Part shown: positions 6,038 through 10,539 of the stretch, piece by piece
Numbering within the stretch: position 1 is the first letter of the stretch
Layout: the number at the start of each line of letters is the position of its first letter
Assembly: GCA_947462875.1 (NCBI GenBank)
Contig: CANHQJ010000004.1
Span: 1 to 64,000, forward strand
Source: Verrucomicrobiia bacterium
GTDB taxonomy: Bacteria; Verrucomicrobiota; Verrucomicrobiia; Verrucomicrobiales; Akkermansiaceae
DNA length: 64,000 nucleotides
Direction: 5' to 3'
The notes under the pieces: model-generated
Seen by the model: the letters and a program-made list of their open reading frames with translations, nothing else
Databases searched by the model: none
What the model was told of the DNA's origin: nothing
Made by a program: the position numbers and the translations under genes

Positions 6038-6805
6038 ATGAAAGCAGTCATACTAGCCGGCGGTCTTGGCACTCGCCTCTCAGAAGAAACAGCCCTCCGC
6101 CCCAAGCCCATGGTGGAAATCGGCGGTCGTCCCATTCTCTGGCACATTTTGAAAATTTACAGCGCCCATGGCATCAATGACTTCGTTATCTGCGCGGGAT
6201 ACAAGGGATACATCATTAAGGAATATTTCGCGAACTACTTTCTCCACATGTCGGACGTCACTTTTGACATGGCCCACAACACGATGGAAGTACATCACAA
6301 AAAAGCCGAACCTTGGAAAGTGACCATCGTTGACACAGGGGACGAAACGATGACCGGAGGACGCATCAAGCGCGTGCAACCGTATGTGGGTGATGAAGCG
6401 TTCTGCTGCACATACGGCGATGGGGTGGGGGATGTGAACATCACGGAATTGATCCAAGCTCACAAATCCTCCGGTGTCGAAGCCACCCTCACCGGAGTGC
6501 AACCTCCGGGGAGATTCGGCGCACTCAATCTCGAAGACGACCGTGTGATCTCCTTCCAAGAAAAACCGGAAGGGGACGGATCCTGGATCAATGGCGGTTT
6601 TTTTGTTCTCGAGCCATCCGTTTTTTCTCGCATCGAAAAAGACAGTACGATCTGGGAACGCGAACCTCTCGAGTCGCTCGCTCGCGACAATCAACTCGGC
6701 ATCTACAAACACAATGGCTTCTGGCGCCCCATGGACACCCTGCGCGATAAAATCGAGTTGGAAAATCTCTGGGATTCAGGAAAAGCACCGTGGAAGAAAT
6801 GGTGA
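6038..6805 (+). CDS. rfbF: Glucose-1-phosphate cytidylyltransferase
   Basis: Makes CDP-glucose from CTP and glucose-1-phosphate, the first step of CDP-3,6-dideoxyhexose synthesis. The nucleotidyltransferase signature GGLGTRL with [15 protein letters not shown] at the N-terminus is diagnostic for this subgroup. [10 protein letters not shown], the [18 protein letters not shown] block and [10 protein letters not shown] also match. The 255 residues equal the Salmonella RfbF/Yersinia DdhA size (about 257). ATG 6038 gives the canonical [14 protein letters not shown] start; an in-frame upstream ATG at 5981 would add an unrelated leader. It is followed by a MITE-like repeat and then rfbG. Confidence 0.95.
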
Positions 6806-6813
6806 GAAATTTT

Positions 6814-6921
6814 AACTGCTACATTCGCGAATTCTCGCCAAACTTCTGTTACTGGATCACACAAAGTCATTCATGTTTCTGTATTTGTTTTCCTTAGCGA
6901 AATTTCGCGTTTTTCCCAGTT
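6814..6921. mobile_element. Non-coding MITE-like inverted pair of the 31-bp repeat
   Basis: Two 31-base units face each other: 6814-6844 in forward orientation (begins AACTGCTA) and 6891-6921 in reverse (reads AACTGGGAAAAACGC on the minus strand), with 46 bases between. Against the unit at 8062-8092 they match at 23 and 20 of 31 positions by my hand alignment, keeping the spaced CGC, AAAT and CGC blocks. The pair fills the gap between the rfbF stop and the rfbG start and carries no gene. I read it as a non-autonomous derivative of the GxxExxY cassette 1.1 kb downstream. Confidence 0.65.
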
Positions 6922-6961
6922 TACCAATGTTTATCCCTTAGTTGCTCAGCTTTTCAAACCA

Positions 6962-8050
6962 ATGTTCAGCGGATTTTACCAAAACAAACGTGTTTTTCTC
7001 ACGGGCCATACGGGCTTCAAGGGCTCATGGATGTCCGAGTGGTTGCTCGCCTTGGGCGCTGAGGTGCATGGTTATGCCCTCGATCCCCAGCCGCACGAAA
7101 TTCTTTATGGACAACTCGGACTGACTTCCCGTCTGGCTTCCGATACCCGGGCGGACCTTTCTGATCGCGCCGCATTGGAAAACGCATTCCGGGAAGCGCA
7201 GCCGGATCTTGTCTTTCATTTGGCCGCGCAACCACTGGTGCGTCTGTCGTATGATATCCCTGTCGAAACATTTGCCACCAATGTGATGGGCACGGCGCAC
7301 ATGCTCGATGTCGTGAGACTCTCCGATCATGCATGTTCCGTCGTCTGCATCACCACCGACAAATGCTACGAAAATCGCGAATGGCTGCACGCTTATCGCG
7401 AGGAAGATGCCATGGGCGGCTACGATCCCTACAGCGCCAGCAAAGGCGCTGCTGAACTGGTGATCTCCTCCTACCGCCGCTCTTTCTTCCCAACCGGTGG
7501 CCGTGTGCGGCTCGCTAGTGCCCGTGCTGGTAATGTCATCGGCGGCGGCGACTGGGCGCTCGATCGCATTGTGCCCGATTGCATTCGAGCGTTGCGAAAC
7601 AACCAAGTCATACCCGTTCGCAATAAAATCGCCACACGTCCCTGGCAACATGTACTCGAGCCTTTGGGGGGATATCTGACCTTGGGCGCGGCCCTGGCTT
7701 CTTCCCCTGCCTCCTCTCTTAACTCCGCCTTCAATTTCGGCCCCGAGCTCACCAGCAACCGCACCGTGGCACAACTCGTTCAGGAGCTGCTGCAACATAT
7801 CCCCGGCGAATGGACCGATGCCTCTGATCCGAATGCCGTGCACGAAGCCTCCAAGCTCAACCTCGCCATCGACAAAGCGTTCCACCTGCTCCAATGGCAA
7901 CCCGTCTGGGACTTCCAGCAAACCATTGCCCACACCGCCGCATGGTATCTCGGCGAAGCCGAAGGGAAATCCCCCCACGACCTGACTCTGCAACAAATCG
8001 AGCACTACCAAACCAGCGCCCAACAAGCAGGCCTGCCCTGGGCAAGATAA
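6962..8050 (+). CDS. rfbG: CDP-glucose 4,6-dehydratase
   Basis: NAD-dependent SDR enzyme converting CDP-glucose to CDP-4-keto-6-deoxyglucose, step two of the CDP-dideoxyhexose pathway. The N-terminal GHTGFKGSW cofactor motif is the RfbG-specific form of GxxGxxG. TTDKCYENREW carries the catalytic region, and Tyr157/Lys161 form YSASK. GGDWALDRIVPD and RPWQHVLEPL blocks are also typical. The 362 residues match the family (about 357). Its position after rfbF and before rfbH supports the assignment. Confidence 0.95.
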   Translation: MFSGFYQNKRVFLTGHTGFKGSWMSEWLLALGAEVHGYALDPQPHEILYGQLGLTSRLASDTRADLSDRAALENAFREAQPDLVFHLAAQPLVRLSYDIPVETFATNVMGTAHMLDVVRLSDHACSVVCITTDKCYENREWLHAYREEDAMGGYDPYSASKGAAELVISSYRRSFFPTGGRVRLASARAGNVIGGGDWALDRIVPDCIRALRNNQVIPVRNKIATRPWQHVLEPLGGYLTLGAALASSPASSLNSAFNFGPELTSNRTVAQLVQELLQHIPGEWTDASDPNAVHEASKLNLAIDKAFHLLQWQPVWDFQQTIAHTAAWYLGEAEGKSPHDLTLQQIEHYQTSAQQAGLPWAR

Positions 8051-8061
8051 GAAAAGTGGGA

Positions 8062-8092
8062 AACCGCTAAATTCGCCAAATCACGCTAAAAG
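8062..8092 (+). repeat. Left inverted repeat (IRL) of the GxxExxY cassette
   Basis: A 31-base unit beginning AACCGCTAAATTCGCC and ending CACGCTAAAAG lies 11 bases after the rfbG stop and 8 bases before the GxxExxY ATG. It aligns without gaps to the reverse complement of 8523-8553 at 24 of 31 positions. The flanking GTGGGA also resembles the inverted flank of the right copy, so the true repeat may be a few bases longer. Confidence 0.8.
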
Positions 8093-8100
8093 AAAAAATC

Positions 8101-8481
8101 ATGGAACTTCTCTACAAAGAGGAAACATACAAGATTGTAGGTGCTTGTTTTGCTGTTTACAAAGACAAGGGCCATGGATTTGTGGAACCCGTCTACCAAG
8201 ATTGCTTGGAAATCGAACTTTCGATGCAAAGCATACCTTTTGAGTCACAATTGCTGCTGCCACTTGAATACAAAGGAGTCCCACTCAAACACAAATTCGT
8301 AGCTGATCTAACGTGCTACGAAGATATTATTGTGGAACTCAAAGCTGTAAAAAATCTTACCGATGAGCACCGCGCCCAATTAATCAACTACCTCAAGGCA
8401 ACAGGCAAACGACTCGGATTGCTGGTCAATTTCGGGCATTATCCCGATCTGGAATGGGAAAGAATCGTGCTGACTCGTTGA
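8101..8481 (+). CDS. GxxExxY protein, PD-(D/E)xK nuclease-like
   Basis: A 126-residue protein of the GxxExxY family (TIGR04256/PF13366). The name motif is present as Gly26-Phe-Val-Glu29-Pro-Val-Tyr32. The nuclease-like core reads Asp69 followed by Glu79-Leu-Lys81 (VADL...IIVELKAV), matching a PD-(D/E)xK active site, so the catalytic residues look intact. The function of this family is, as far as I know, not established. Here it sits alone between the CDP-sugar genes rfbG and rfbH, enclosed by inverted 31-bp repeats whose copies are scattered nearby. That context suggests a role in mobility or repair at those repeats; this is inference. It is not obviously part of sugar metabolism. Confidence 0.9.
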   Translation: MELLYKEETYKIVGACFAVYKDKGHGFVEPVYQDCLEIELSMQSIPFESQLLLPLEYKGVPLKHKFVADLTCYEDIIVELKAVKNLTDEHRAQLINYLKATGKRLGLLVNFGHYPDLEWERIVLTR

Positions 8482-8522
8482 TCCCCCTTAGCATTCCTAC
8501 CTTATTGCCCCATCACATTTTT

Positions 8523-8553
8523 CATTTCGCGTAATTTCGCGCCTTTAGCGGTC
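8523..8553 (-). repeat. Right inverted repeat (IRR) of the GxxExxY cassette
   Basis: On the minus strand this reads GACCGCTAAAGGCGCG... ending ACGCGAAATG. It matches IRL at 24 of 31 positions with no gaps, including the ACCGCTAAA, CGC, AAAT and ACGC blocks. It lies 41 bases after the GxxExxY stop codon. Confidence 0.8.
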
Positions 8554-8642
8554 CTTCCCATTGCCTTTAAAAAGCTTAACGCCGTGATCTCAGATTCATC
8601 TTCTGTCCCTTTCACATAACAGTAACAAACAGTTCATTCTTT

Positions 8643-8673
8643 TATTTCACGTAATTTAGCGCTTTTCGCGGTT
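8643..8673 (-). repeat. Solo 31-bp repeat unit upstream of rfbH
   Basis: On the minus strand this reads AACCGCGAAAAGCGC... and matches IRL at 22 of 31 positions. It has the same orientation as IRR, begins 89 bases beyond it and ends 19 bases before the rfbH ATG, so it forms part of the rfbH 5' leader. The rest of the 211-base gap 8482-8692 holds AT-rich sequence with no gene that I can see. Confidence 0.75.
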
Positions 8674-8692
8674 TCTCAATTCCTTCTTTCCC

Positions 8693-10381
8693 ATGTCACC
8701 TTCCGAACTCAAATCCGAAATCCTTCGCCTCACCCGCGAGTACTCCCGCCTCACCCACGCTGCCAATCGTCCTGGTGATGACCCTCAGCGTCCTCTCTAT
8801 CAACCCGGTCAAACCATTCCCTACGCCGGCCGTGTCTTCACGGAGGACGAAGTGGAAGCCTGTGTCTCCGCCACGCTGGATTTCTGGCTCACTCTCGGCC
8901 CTGAGGGCGAGGCCATGGAGCGCGAGCTCGCCGAGTTCATGGGCGTGAAACATTGCCTCTTGGTGAACTCCGGTTCCTCCGCGAATCTGGTAGCCTTCAG
9001 CGCCCTCACCACCCACAAGCTTCCTCCCCACAAACGCATCTGCCCGGGCGATGAAGTCATCACCGTGGCCGCTGGTTTTCCCACCACCGTCGCTCCGATC
9101 GTACAGTGCGGAGCCATTCCCGTCTTTATCGATGCAAAAGTCTCCACAGGCAATGCCAACTGCGCGCTACTGGAGTCAGCCTATTCTCCCGGAAAAACAA
9201 AAGCCGTCATGATGGCTCACGCTCTGGGCAATCCCTTCGAACTCGTCACGGTGCTGGAATTTTGCCAGAAACACGACCTCTGGCTCATCGAGGACAACTG
9301 CGACGCCCTCGGCTGCACCTACACGCTACCGCTGGAAAAAGCCAAAGAACTCGGCCTCGACCACCTCATCAAAATCGCCGAAAAGGGGAATCATCCGATC
9401 ATCCGCATCCACGATGCCGAAGGCTCAAGCACAGATCAGCAATCAACAATCAACAATCAGCAATCGTCAATTCCCCTCTTTCTCACCGCCCCCACCGGCT
9501 CTTTCGGCGATATCTCCACGCAGTCCTTCTACCCTCCGCACCATCTGACCATGGGCGAGGGCGGCTCCGTCAACATCGTGCGCAAGCCCCCCTTGAAAAC
9601 CTATGCCGAAAGCTTCCGCGACTGGGGCCGCGATTGTTGGTGCGCCTCGGGCAAGGATGACACTTGTGGCAAGCGCTTCCAATGGCAACTCGGCGAACTG
9701 CCTGAGGGCTACGATCACAAATACATCTACAGTCACTTGGGATTCAACCTCAAGCCGCTCGATACCCAGGCCGCGATCGGTCGCGTTCAGCTGAAGAGAC
9801 TCCCCGATTTTATCGAAGCGAGAAAACGCAATTGGGAAAGACTGCGCCGCGGTCTTCATGGTTTGGAGGAATACTTCGAGTTTGCCCTCCCCACCCACGC
9901 CACCGCCTGGATCCCGCCGGCGGAAAGCGAGATGCAAATGGAAACAGAGCAACCGTCAAATTCGCAAAATGACGCTAATCAAAATTCTGATTCTTCAAAA
10001 ATTTCGCGTGATTCGCGTTTTTCGCGGTTCACTTCTTCTTTCTCCTGGGACGATACCGGATGCCGCACCGACTGTTCCTGGTTCGGATTCAAAATCACGC
10101 TAAAAGAATCCGCTCCTTTCACCCGCACGGATCTGGTCAGGCATCTCGACGAGCATAAAATCGGCAATCGCATGCTCTTCGGCGGAAATTTGGTTCGCCA
10201 ACCAGCCTTCGTACAATTGAAAAAAGACCGTCCTGACGGTGTGAGATGCGCCGGCGAGTTGCCGCAAGCCGATCGCATCATGAACCAAACCTTCTTCCTT
10301 GGCACCTACCCCGGTCTCACAGCAGAACAAATCGACCACATGGCGAAGGTGATTCGCGATTTTGTGGCATCGAATAAGTAA
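8693..10381 (+). CDS. rfbH: CDP-4-keto-6-deoxy-D-glucose 3-dehydrase (E1), with repeat insertions
   Basis: PMP- and [2Fe-2S]-dependent dehydrase of CDP-3,6-dideoxyhexose synthesis (RfbH/DdhC/AscC). His283-His284 in SFYPPHHLTMGEGG stands where aminotransferases have the PLP lysine, the hallmark of E1. The cluster cysteines are visible as Cys203 (DNCDALG) and Cys315-x-Cys317-x7-Cys325. At 562 residues it is much longer than the usual 430-440. Two low-complexity stretches explain part of the excess: about residues 248-260, from a heptamer array at 9435-9469, and about residues 420-446, from a palindromic repeat pair at 9951-10029. Both are read in frame, and conserved blocks (SFSWDDTGCRTDCSWFGFKI) resume after the second. 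The partner reductase E3 is not in the window. The gene is probably functional, but this needs testing. Confidence 0.92.
   Translation: MSPSELKSEILRLTREYSRLTHAANRPGDDPQRPLYQPGQTIPYAGRVFTEDEVEACVSATLDFWLTLGPEGEAMERELAEFMGVKHCLLVNSGSSANLVAFSALTTHKLPPHKRICPGDEVITVAAGFPTTVAPIVQCGAIPVFIDAKVSTGNANCALLESAYSPGKTKAVMMAHALGNPFELVTVLEFCQKHDLWLIEDNCDALGCTYTLPLEKAKELGLDHLIKIAEKGNHPIIRIHDAEGSSTDQQSTINNQQSSIPLFLTAPTGSFGDISTQSFYPPHHLTMGEGGSVNIVRKPPLKTYAESFRDWGRDCWCASGKDDTCGKRFQWQLGELPEGYDHKYIYSHLGFNLKPLDTQAAIGRVQLKRLPDFIEARKRNWERLRRGLHGLEEYFEFALPTHATAWIPPAESEMQMETEQPSNSQNDANQNSDSSKISRDSRFSRFTSSFSWDDTGCRTDCSWFGFKITLKESAPFTRTDLVRHLDEHKIGNRMLFGGNLVRQPAFVQLKKDRPDGVRCAGELPQADRIMNQTFFLGTYPGLTAEQIDHMAKVIRDFVASNK
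9435..9469. repeat. Heptanucleotide array inside rfbH
   Basis: Five 7-bp units in a row (ATCAGCA, ATCAACA, ATCAACA, ATCAGCA, ATCGTCA) lie within the rfbH reading frame and encode the low-complexity DQQSTINNQQSS segment. The 35-base array is not a multiple of three, so neighbouring bases must compensate for the frame. It lies in a loop before the conserved TGSFGDISTQSFYPPHH block. Confidence 0.85.
9951..10029. mobile_element. Repeat-pair (MITE-like) insertion inside the rfbH coding sequence
   Basis: The left arm 9951-9978 (AACCGTCAAATTCGC... ACGCTAA) and right arm 10002-10029 (minus strand AACCGCGAAAAACGC... ACGCGAAA) are inverted copies of the family repeat with a 23-base loop. With one single-base gap they agree at roughly two thirds of positions. 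The block is translated in frame as a Ser/Asn/Arg-rich linker (SNSQNDANQNSDSSK then SRDSRFSRF), absent from the conserved architecture of E1 enzymes. Confidence 0.75.
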
Positions 10382-10388
10382 CAAAAAT

Positions 10389-10452
10389 GGAGCGCGGACT
10401 TTTCTTGGCCTTCATAGTCCCCCTGAGCGGGACGAAGTAGGCAGTCCGCTTC
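10389..10452. repeat. GGAGCGCGGACT-type inverted repeat, degenerate copy
   Basis: Within the 158-base gap after rfbH, GCGGACT (10394-10400) pairs with AGTCCGC (10443-10449), and an inner GTCCC/GGGAC hairpin sits between. GGAGCGCGGACT and AGTCCGCTTC are the same words as in the perfect hairpin at 24037-24097. As there, it begins just after a stop codon (8 bases). The rest of the gap shows nothing further. Confidence 0.6.
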
Positions 10453-10539
10453 AAAAGCAATTCCCTATTGCCCCCCGCTCAGCGTTTCCAACAACCCTCC
10501 CTTTACACCGCCCCAAACACACGCTAACGTAATCACACG

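Follow-up and report, generated by a model that had tools for sequence, protein, structure and literature searches.

The window, i.e., the entire 64,000-nucleotide stretch of DNA analyzed here, carries on its plus strand a cluster of sugar-pathway genes that includes a nucleotidyl transferase gene, a GDP-mannose-dehydratase/epimerase-type gene (6962-8050), a DegT/DnrJ aminotransferase gene (8693-10381), and a dTDP-sugar isomerase gene. Between the dehydratase/epimerase-type and aminotransferase genes, presumably rfbG and rfbH and hereafter called rfbG-like and rfbH-like, lies a small gene on the same strand (8101-8481) whose 126-aa product is assigned to the GxxExxY / PDDEXK_3 nuclease-like proteins by profile matches, alignment, and an AlphaFold2 model. 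The product scored above both family cut-offs, with 140.7 bits against GxxExxY (TIGR04256; curated cut-off 35) and 138.6 bits against PDDEXK_3 (PF13366; cut-off 22), the latter being its only Pfam content. In an alignment of 12 proteins, G24xG26xxE29xxY32, D69, E79xK81, and Q93xxxY97 were invariant, in keeping with a previous reading of the sequence alone (the sequence-only reading), which had described the GxxExxY, D, and ExK residues as intact.

The AlphaFold2 model of the protein (42 sequences; pLDDT 92.9, pTM 0.85) was nearest in fold to SSO0001 (4ic1; Foldseek E 4.8e-5; VIA Z 9.8, rmsd 3.8 over 100 residues), which we take to be Cas4, followed by lambda exonuclease, RecB-type, and restriction enzymes. 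With Z values as middling as these, the predicted structure would indicate kinship of fold and nothing beyond. The likeness to Cas4/RecB-type nucleases extends to the catalytic residues, including QxxxY; the window protein differs from Cas4 in its length of only 126 aa, in its score of 12.3 bits against the curated Cas4 model, i.e., below the cut-off of 65, and in having no CRISPR protein among the five neighbor genes scanned. Cas4 models of PADLOC-DB gave E values of 0.023 and 0.029, and a search of solved structures by sequence returned none at E up to 10. A role as an anti-phage defense protein was considered and rejected, since PADLOC-DB defense models gave weak and partial matches, none of them confident (best E 6.9e-4 over 37 residues, PDC-M36A). 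A phage-gene origin was also rejected, the best PHROGs match reaching only E 0.0067 over 36 residues; a viral scan found one relative of the window protein among 42 pattern matches.

The gene is enclosed by two inverted repeats, here called arms. The left (5') arm (8062-8092, plus strand) consists of three tandem units of ~9 bp, CCGCTAAAT TCGCCAAAT CACGCTAAA, that read towards the gene, and it ends 8 bases before the ATG, while the right (3') arm (8523-8553, minus strand) is an inverted copy of it and lies 42-72 bases past the stop. As the sequence-only reading had stated, the two match at 24 of 31 positions without gaps; under an alternative framing (8063-8097/8518-8552), 29 of 35 positions match. 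Among 3000 random anchors with the same geometry in the window, two reached the observed score, and those two may overlap the element. When the window was searched with an arm-class model (R1) built on 24 training rows, the window's left arm among them, the four top matches were 8525-8551 (19.7 bits, E 8.8e-5), 10002-10027 (E 9e-4), 8064-8090 (16.1 bits, E 0.0012), and 8645-8671 (E 0.006). The first and third of these are the arms just described, and the fourth belongs to a second right-hand arm (8643-8673, minus strand; 22/31 to the left arm) that was absent from the earlier description of the locus. Rfam found no known RNA over 6500-10500 at E up to 1.

The match at 10002-10027 lies in a gene-less stretch (9951-10029), where a clear right arm (10001-10029, minus strand) is preceded by a weak left arm (9951-9979, plus strand; one mismatch to the arm pattern; model 9958-9978, E 0.42). 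A possible single arm is located at 6893-6921 (minus strand; 6897-6921 with three mismatches to the pattern; model 6903-6915, E 0.64). The sequence-only reading had proposed that the same repeat pair occurs twice more without the gene. Single arms do resemble the class, but as pairs both are at the level of controls: 9951-9979/10001-10029 matches at 16 of 29 positions with a score of 15, and the one near 6826-6921 reaches 17, against a control median of 17. The 9951-10029 stretch runs in frame within the rfbH-like coding sequence and is without counterpart in the seven relatives aligned; at this position of the aminotransferase gene, one relative (L138) has a different, shorter insert. Genome-wide, the arm pattern with up to three mismatches occurs 10 times, five of them in the window, and the reversed pattern once; the genome holds about ten arms and no large population. 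A second in-frame repeat-like stretch within the rfbH-like gene, CAGCAATCAACAATCAACAATCAGCAATC at 9437-9465, is reminiscent of short repeats near four-helix genes. It is partly common to the closest relative (L133) and different or absent in the other aligned relatives.

Arms around GxxExxY genes of related genomes

TIGR04256 is present in 72 of 97 order-level relatives with a total of 201 matches, of which 90 were examined (30 initial loci, 20 from the same genus, and 40 by descending score). A second, named set comprised the best 80 of 577 loci holding relatives of the window protein, with proteins 58-68% identical; two of the 80 were dropped. Arms were scored as the best local inverted match between the 250 bases before and the 250 bases after the gene and were called at a score of at least 26; anchors of the same geometry within the same loci served as controls. 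Flanking arms were found at 67 of 89 order-level genes (L041 was dropped as too short) vs 13 of 1716 control anchors and at 65 of 78 named-record genes vs 28 of 1629. Many of these loci are orthologous. Counted as distinct loci, grouped inside each of the two sets and not across them, 81 of 107 had arms in the majority of members and 83 in any member, and 24 had no member with detectable arms. The GxxExxY genes of related genomes are therefore mostly flanked by inverted arms, far above controls, as the sequence-only reading would have it. There is good support for gene and arms forming a single unit.

In 132 arm pairs, arm length had a median of 31 bases, and the median distances were 16 bases before the start and 15.5 bases after the stop. 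Arms have a period of 9, with identities at shift 9 of 0.42 and 0.54 (shuffles: 0.27 and 0.31), and 50 of the 65 arm-bearing named loci fit one class of CC[AG]CGAAA type, a pattern drawn after the arms had been seen. The records of the window protein's relatives (best 80 of 577) are labeled as at least eight phyla, with Verrucomicrobia, Planctomycetes, Kiritimatiellae, Lentisphaerae, Acidobacteria, and Armatimonadetes among the labels in their titles and Calditrichota, Neomarinimicrobiota, Desulfobulbaceae, Bacteroidia, and Thiohalocapsa in further titles; since nearly all named records are metagenome bins, single taxon labels may be wrong. No arms were detected at the Bacteroidia (L223) and Thiohalocapsa (L182) loci. 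Two GxxExxY copies (L024, L081) have an in-frame stop near the start, so decayed copies exist.

Arm sequence follows protein subtype

Arm sequences fall into many classes, e.g., CCACGAAA, CGCAGAG, GACAGGATT, AACGACGGATT, and CCACTGA; GACAGGATT and CCACGGAA are among those of protein subtypes other than the window's. Considering that the arms are tandem ~9-mers that vary with protein subtype, the one shared skeleton that the sequence-only reading had assumed, AACCGC-AAA-CGC, would miss most of them, and this part of the reading had to be given up. Protein identity was correlated with arm similarity across 2140 pairs drawn from non-orthologous loci (rho 0.253; 0 of 2000 permutations; host kinship uncontrolled), and arms were alike in a fraction of 0.71 of the 21 pairs at 60-70% protein identity vs 0.01-0.02 below 40%. 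In a held-out test that took the arms of named genomes as the model and left out the window's own arm, window-class arms lay beside 10 of the 13 order-level proteins that share at least 50% identity with the window's and beside 2 of the 73 below 45% (p 5e-9). At the nrdB-nrdA site, three genomes have GACAGAATT-type and three AACGACGGATT-type arms; between the two groups the proteins are 35-40% identical and the arms unrelated. One nuo site gives a similar picture, with unrelated proteins and unrelated arms, and only 3 of 32 arm-bearing gene pairs from the same genome were alike in arm sequence. In these comparisons of sequence, the arms follow the protein subtype and not the site.

Whether the repeats are equally common without the gene was determined across genomes. 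Window-class arms were found in 12 of the 18 genomes that encode a protein of at least 51% identity vs 16 of the 79 others (Fisher p 2.4e-4, host kinship uncontrolled), and in 14 of 20 vs 14 of 77 when two fragment-holding genomes were counted in; where a close protein was lacking, arm numbers by the model still rose to 17 in G090, with 13 in G084. Window-class arms are thus enriched with a close protein and not exclusive to it.

Occupied sites and explanations of the element

Judged by eye from translations, the sites occupied include nrdB-nrdA, pheS-pheT, nuo genes, and two parts of metH. In L034 and other LG0 loci, metH was seen by eye as two separate open frames with a GxxExxY element between them, and on one contig (G007:C19, L253) a four-helix gene shares a nuo stretch with two GxxExxY genes. 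Of the loci whose two neighbors (taken as the longest open frames) agree in strand, 60 of 66 and 44 of 51 have the gene on that strand as well. An invertible switch was rejected, since no opposite-orientation pair occurred among the orthologous loci listed. The window's rfbG-rfbH gap is short and empty in five relatives (G002, G005, G007, G009, and G023) and is a longer spacer without the GxxExxY gene in G001. In G008 (L136) and G004 (L138) it holds other small genes, toxin-antitoxin-like by eye, and this gap may be prone to insertion in general.

Two congeners, G002 and G007, are about 90% identical over the compared stretches, yet differ by whole elements: a nuo spacer measures 469 bases (filled) in G007 vs 11 in G002, and a metH spacer 573 bases (filled) in G002 vs 35 in G007. 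Close genomes therefore differ in filled and empty sites, as would be expected from the mobility that had been proposed. A two-armed piece of about 150 bases adjoins the metH gene of G002 (L021) and has seven further matches in that genome (L243-L249), four of 152-154 bases and three partial (62-118); in nine congeners, the same piece gave one 39-base match (in five of them, 30 of 38-45 candidates were scored). Of the seven copies, six were searched for in G007, and alignments were made for the four whose flanks both lay on one contig; three (L243, L244, L245) are absent from G007, and the L246 site has other content. The GxxExxY gene at L021 has no clear arm pair (score 17), so these copies are tied to the nuclease by vicinity only. 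No target-site duplication was seen at the compared sites, where spacers are divergent and joints blurred. That the element moves is supported, as far as aligned genomes can indicate.

We consider it probable, on balance, that 8062-8553, or 8062-8673 if the second right arm is counted, represents one copy of a widespread minimal mobile element, in which a gene for a Cas4/RecB-like PD-(D/E)xK nuclease lies between inverted arms that each comprise about three tandem 9-bp units. Recognition of the arms by the nuclease would be the simplest reason for the matching of arm and protein subtype seen in the sequences. The nuclease would bind to arms of the matching type, with one protomer on each ~9-bp unit, i.e., about one helical turn, and would nick or cut there; host repair or replication would then copy the armed segment into another spacer, and gene-less armed copies would be moved in trans by the nuclease. 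That the nuclease drives movement by cutting is what we infer from these features. Since no common partner gene was found among the frequent flanking families of the 80 named loci, the joining of strands would be left to the host; the 15 best-connected flanking frames of these loci all came from a single orthologous ABC-transporter site. The proposal of a mobile system in which a PD-(D/E)xK protein replaces the transposase thus gains from the arms that accompany the gene and from filled and empty sites, and loses from the window's gene-less pairs, which are weak as pairs.

An explanation at the RNA level is unlikely, in our estimation, but has several points in its favor. It holds that the arms form a stem in the transcript from which RNase III excises the insertion, so that the inserted DNA costs the host little and its ORF persists as a selfish passenger, in the manner of the intervening sequences (IVS) of 23S rRNA with an S23/four-helix protein. 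According to PMC4990558, the Coxiella IVS has 428 nt and an S23 ORF, its terminal inverted repeats form a 28-bp stem, and RNase III excises it. Agreement of strand with surrounding genes would fit (61 of 73 distinct loci the same, 12 opposite), as would the finding that four-helix (TIGR02436, S23-like) genes of the order relatives (L104-L131) are likewise armed (16/30 vs 4/231 controls), counts that are rough since the wrong ORF was taken in some loci, e.g., L102, L103, L118, and L119. However, the four-helix arms have a period of 7, not 9 (types GTAGCAG, AGTGTTC, and AAGACAT), Rfam found nothing around the window's gene, and pairing by itself gives no reason for arm sequence to go with protein subtype. 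Moreover, arm mismatches on the sense transcript had no excess of G.U over A.C (146 vs 210, p 8e-4 raw; by locus group 27 vs 36, p 0.31), so the likeness of the arms is not visibly maintained by RNA pairing. The raw bias runs against selection for a stem and is no longer significant once loci are grouped; we take it as a lack of support only.

It is similarly improbable that the gene is a free-standing homing endonuclease, for which an allele without the insertion would be cut, repair would copy the element in, and the arms would be secondary. The occupied spacers of conserved operons listed above are what such a gene would favor, different protein lineages are found at the same sites, target duplication was not seen, and the catalytic domain of the homing endonuclease I-Bth0305I does occur in the fold list, far down (Foldseek rank 22, E 0.076). 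From homing one would expect neither a match of arms and protein at unrelated sites nor armed copies without the gene at several G002 sites.

We think it rather less likely still that an ordinary small gene was spread by horizontal exchange, with arms that serve as regulatory or protective hairpins and without self-movement. Copy numbers are low, and 18 of the 80 named loci represent the one orthologous ABC-transporter site with both arms kept, a pattern more suggestive of long residence than of hopping. Such a gene would account neither for the armed copies that lie scattered in G002 with no GxxExxY gene, where G007 is empty at three of the four sites compared, nor for sites occupied by unrelated lineages, each with its own arms. 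At the ABC-transporter site (e.g., L164, L166, L170), both arms vary together among the records, between CCCACGAAA and CCCGCGAAT types. Finally, REP-type sequences moved by RAYT tyrosine transposases with GxxExxY as a passenger would be a most improbable explanation, since, plentiful as Y1_Tnp genes are (51 of 57 genomes), the inverted repeats at RAYT-type genes (19/28 vs 5/119 controls after L270 and L289 were dropped from 30 loci; rough, with the wrong ORF in L282, L298, and others) are compact GC-rich palindromes, unlike the purine-rich 9-mer arms, and those arms are matched to the GxxExxY subtype.

Relation to known systems

Small nuclease genes in the spacers of conserved genes, e.g., nrd, are known as free-standing homing endonuclease genes of T4-type phages. 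The element described here shares this location with them and differs in having ends that are armed and matched to protein subtype and in its gene-less armed copies. MITEs and classical IS elements have terminal inverted repeats and miniature copies, features that are also found here; here, in contrast, no transposase lies between the arms, and no target duplication was seen at the compared sites, with their blurred joints. The phage genes are treated in PMC2988022. A further comparison is with REPIN/RAYT systems (PMC3116915; PMC3733652). In these, too, a single gene is flanked by inverted repeats, and miniature copies that lack the gene occur in spacers. In contrast to those systems, a PD-(D/E)xK nuclease and no Y1 tyrosine transposase (PF01797) lies between the repeats here, the arms are tandem ~9-mers whereas REP ends are palindromic, and copies are few, with arms following protein subtype over many sequence classes. 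Like the 23S rRNA IVS with an S23/four-helix ORF (PMC4990558), the element is about 0.4-0.6 kb long and has one small ORF and terminal inverted repeats of about 28-31 bp; it differs in lying in spacers of protein operons (rfbG-like/rfbH-like in the window), in its nuclease ORF (PF13366), and in showing no sign of selection for RNA pairing. The element works like REPIN/RAYT and IVS, and by the features tested it is a member of neither.

As a wider and more tentative proposal, which we hold to be less likely than not, GxxExxY genes may constitute an autonomous mobile class in which a lone PD-(D/E)xK nuclease of ~125 aa recognizes arms of about three 9-bp repeats and drives copying of the segments they bound without a transposase, recombinase, or reverse transcriptase. 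Each subtype would have its own 9-mer code, and a parallel four-helix (S23-type) class would use 7-bp repeats. In the open literature searched, two papers use the name GxxExxY and one names PF13366; the passages concerned make no statement on role, and text searches did not find the arm repeat strings. The association described here links the protein with a DNA site that is defined and specific to its subtype, which gives the GxxExxY family a testable function, and it provides a naturally occurring set of nucleases matched with their sites. It may also explain one class of scattered short repeats, and if one nuclease suffices for movement, these elements would be among the smallest self-spreading units of DNA.
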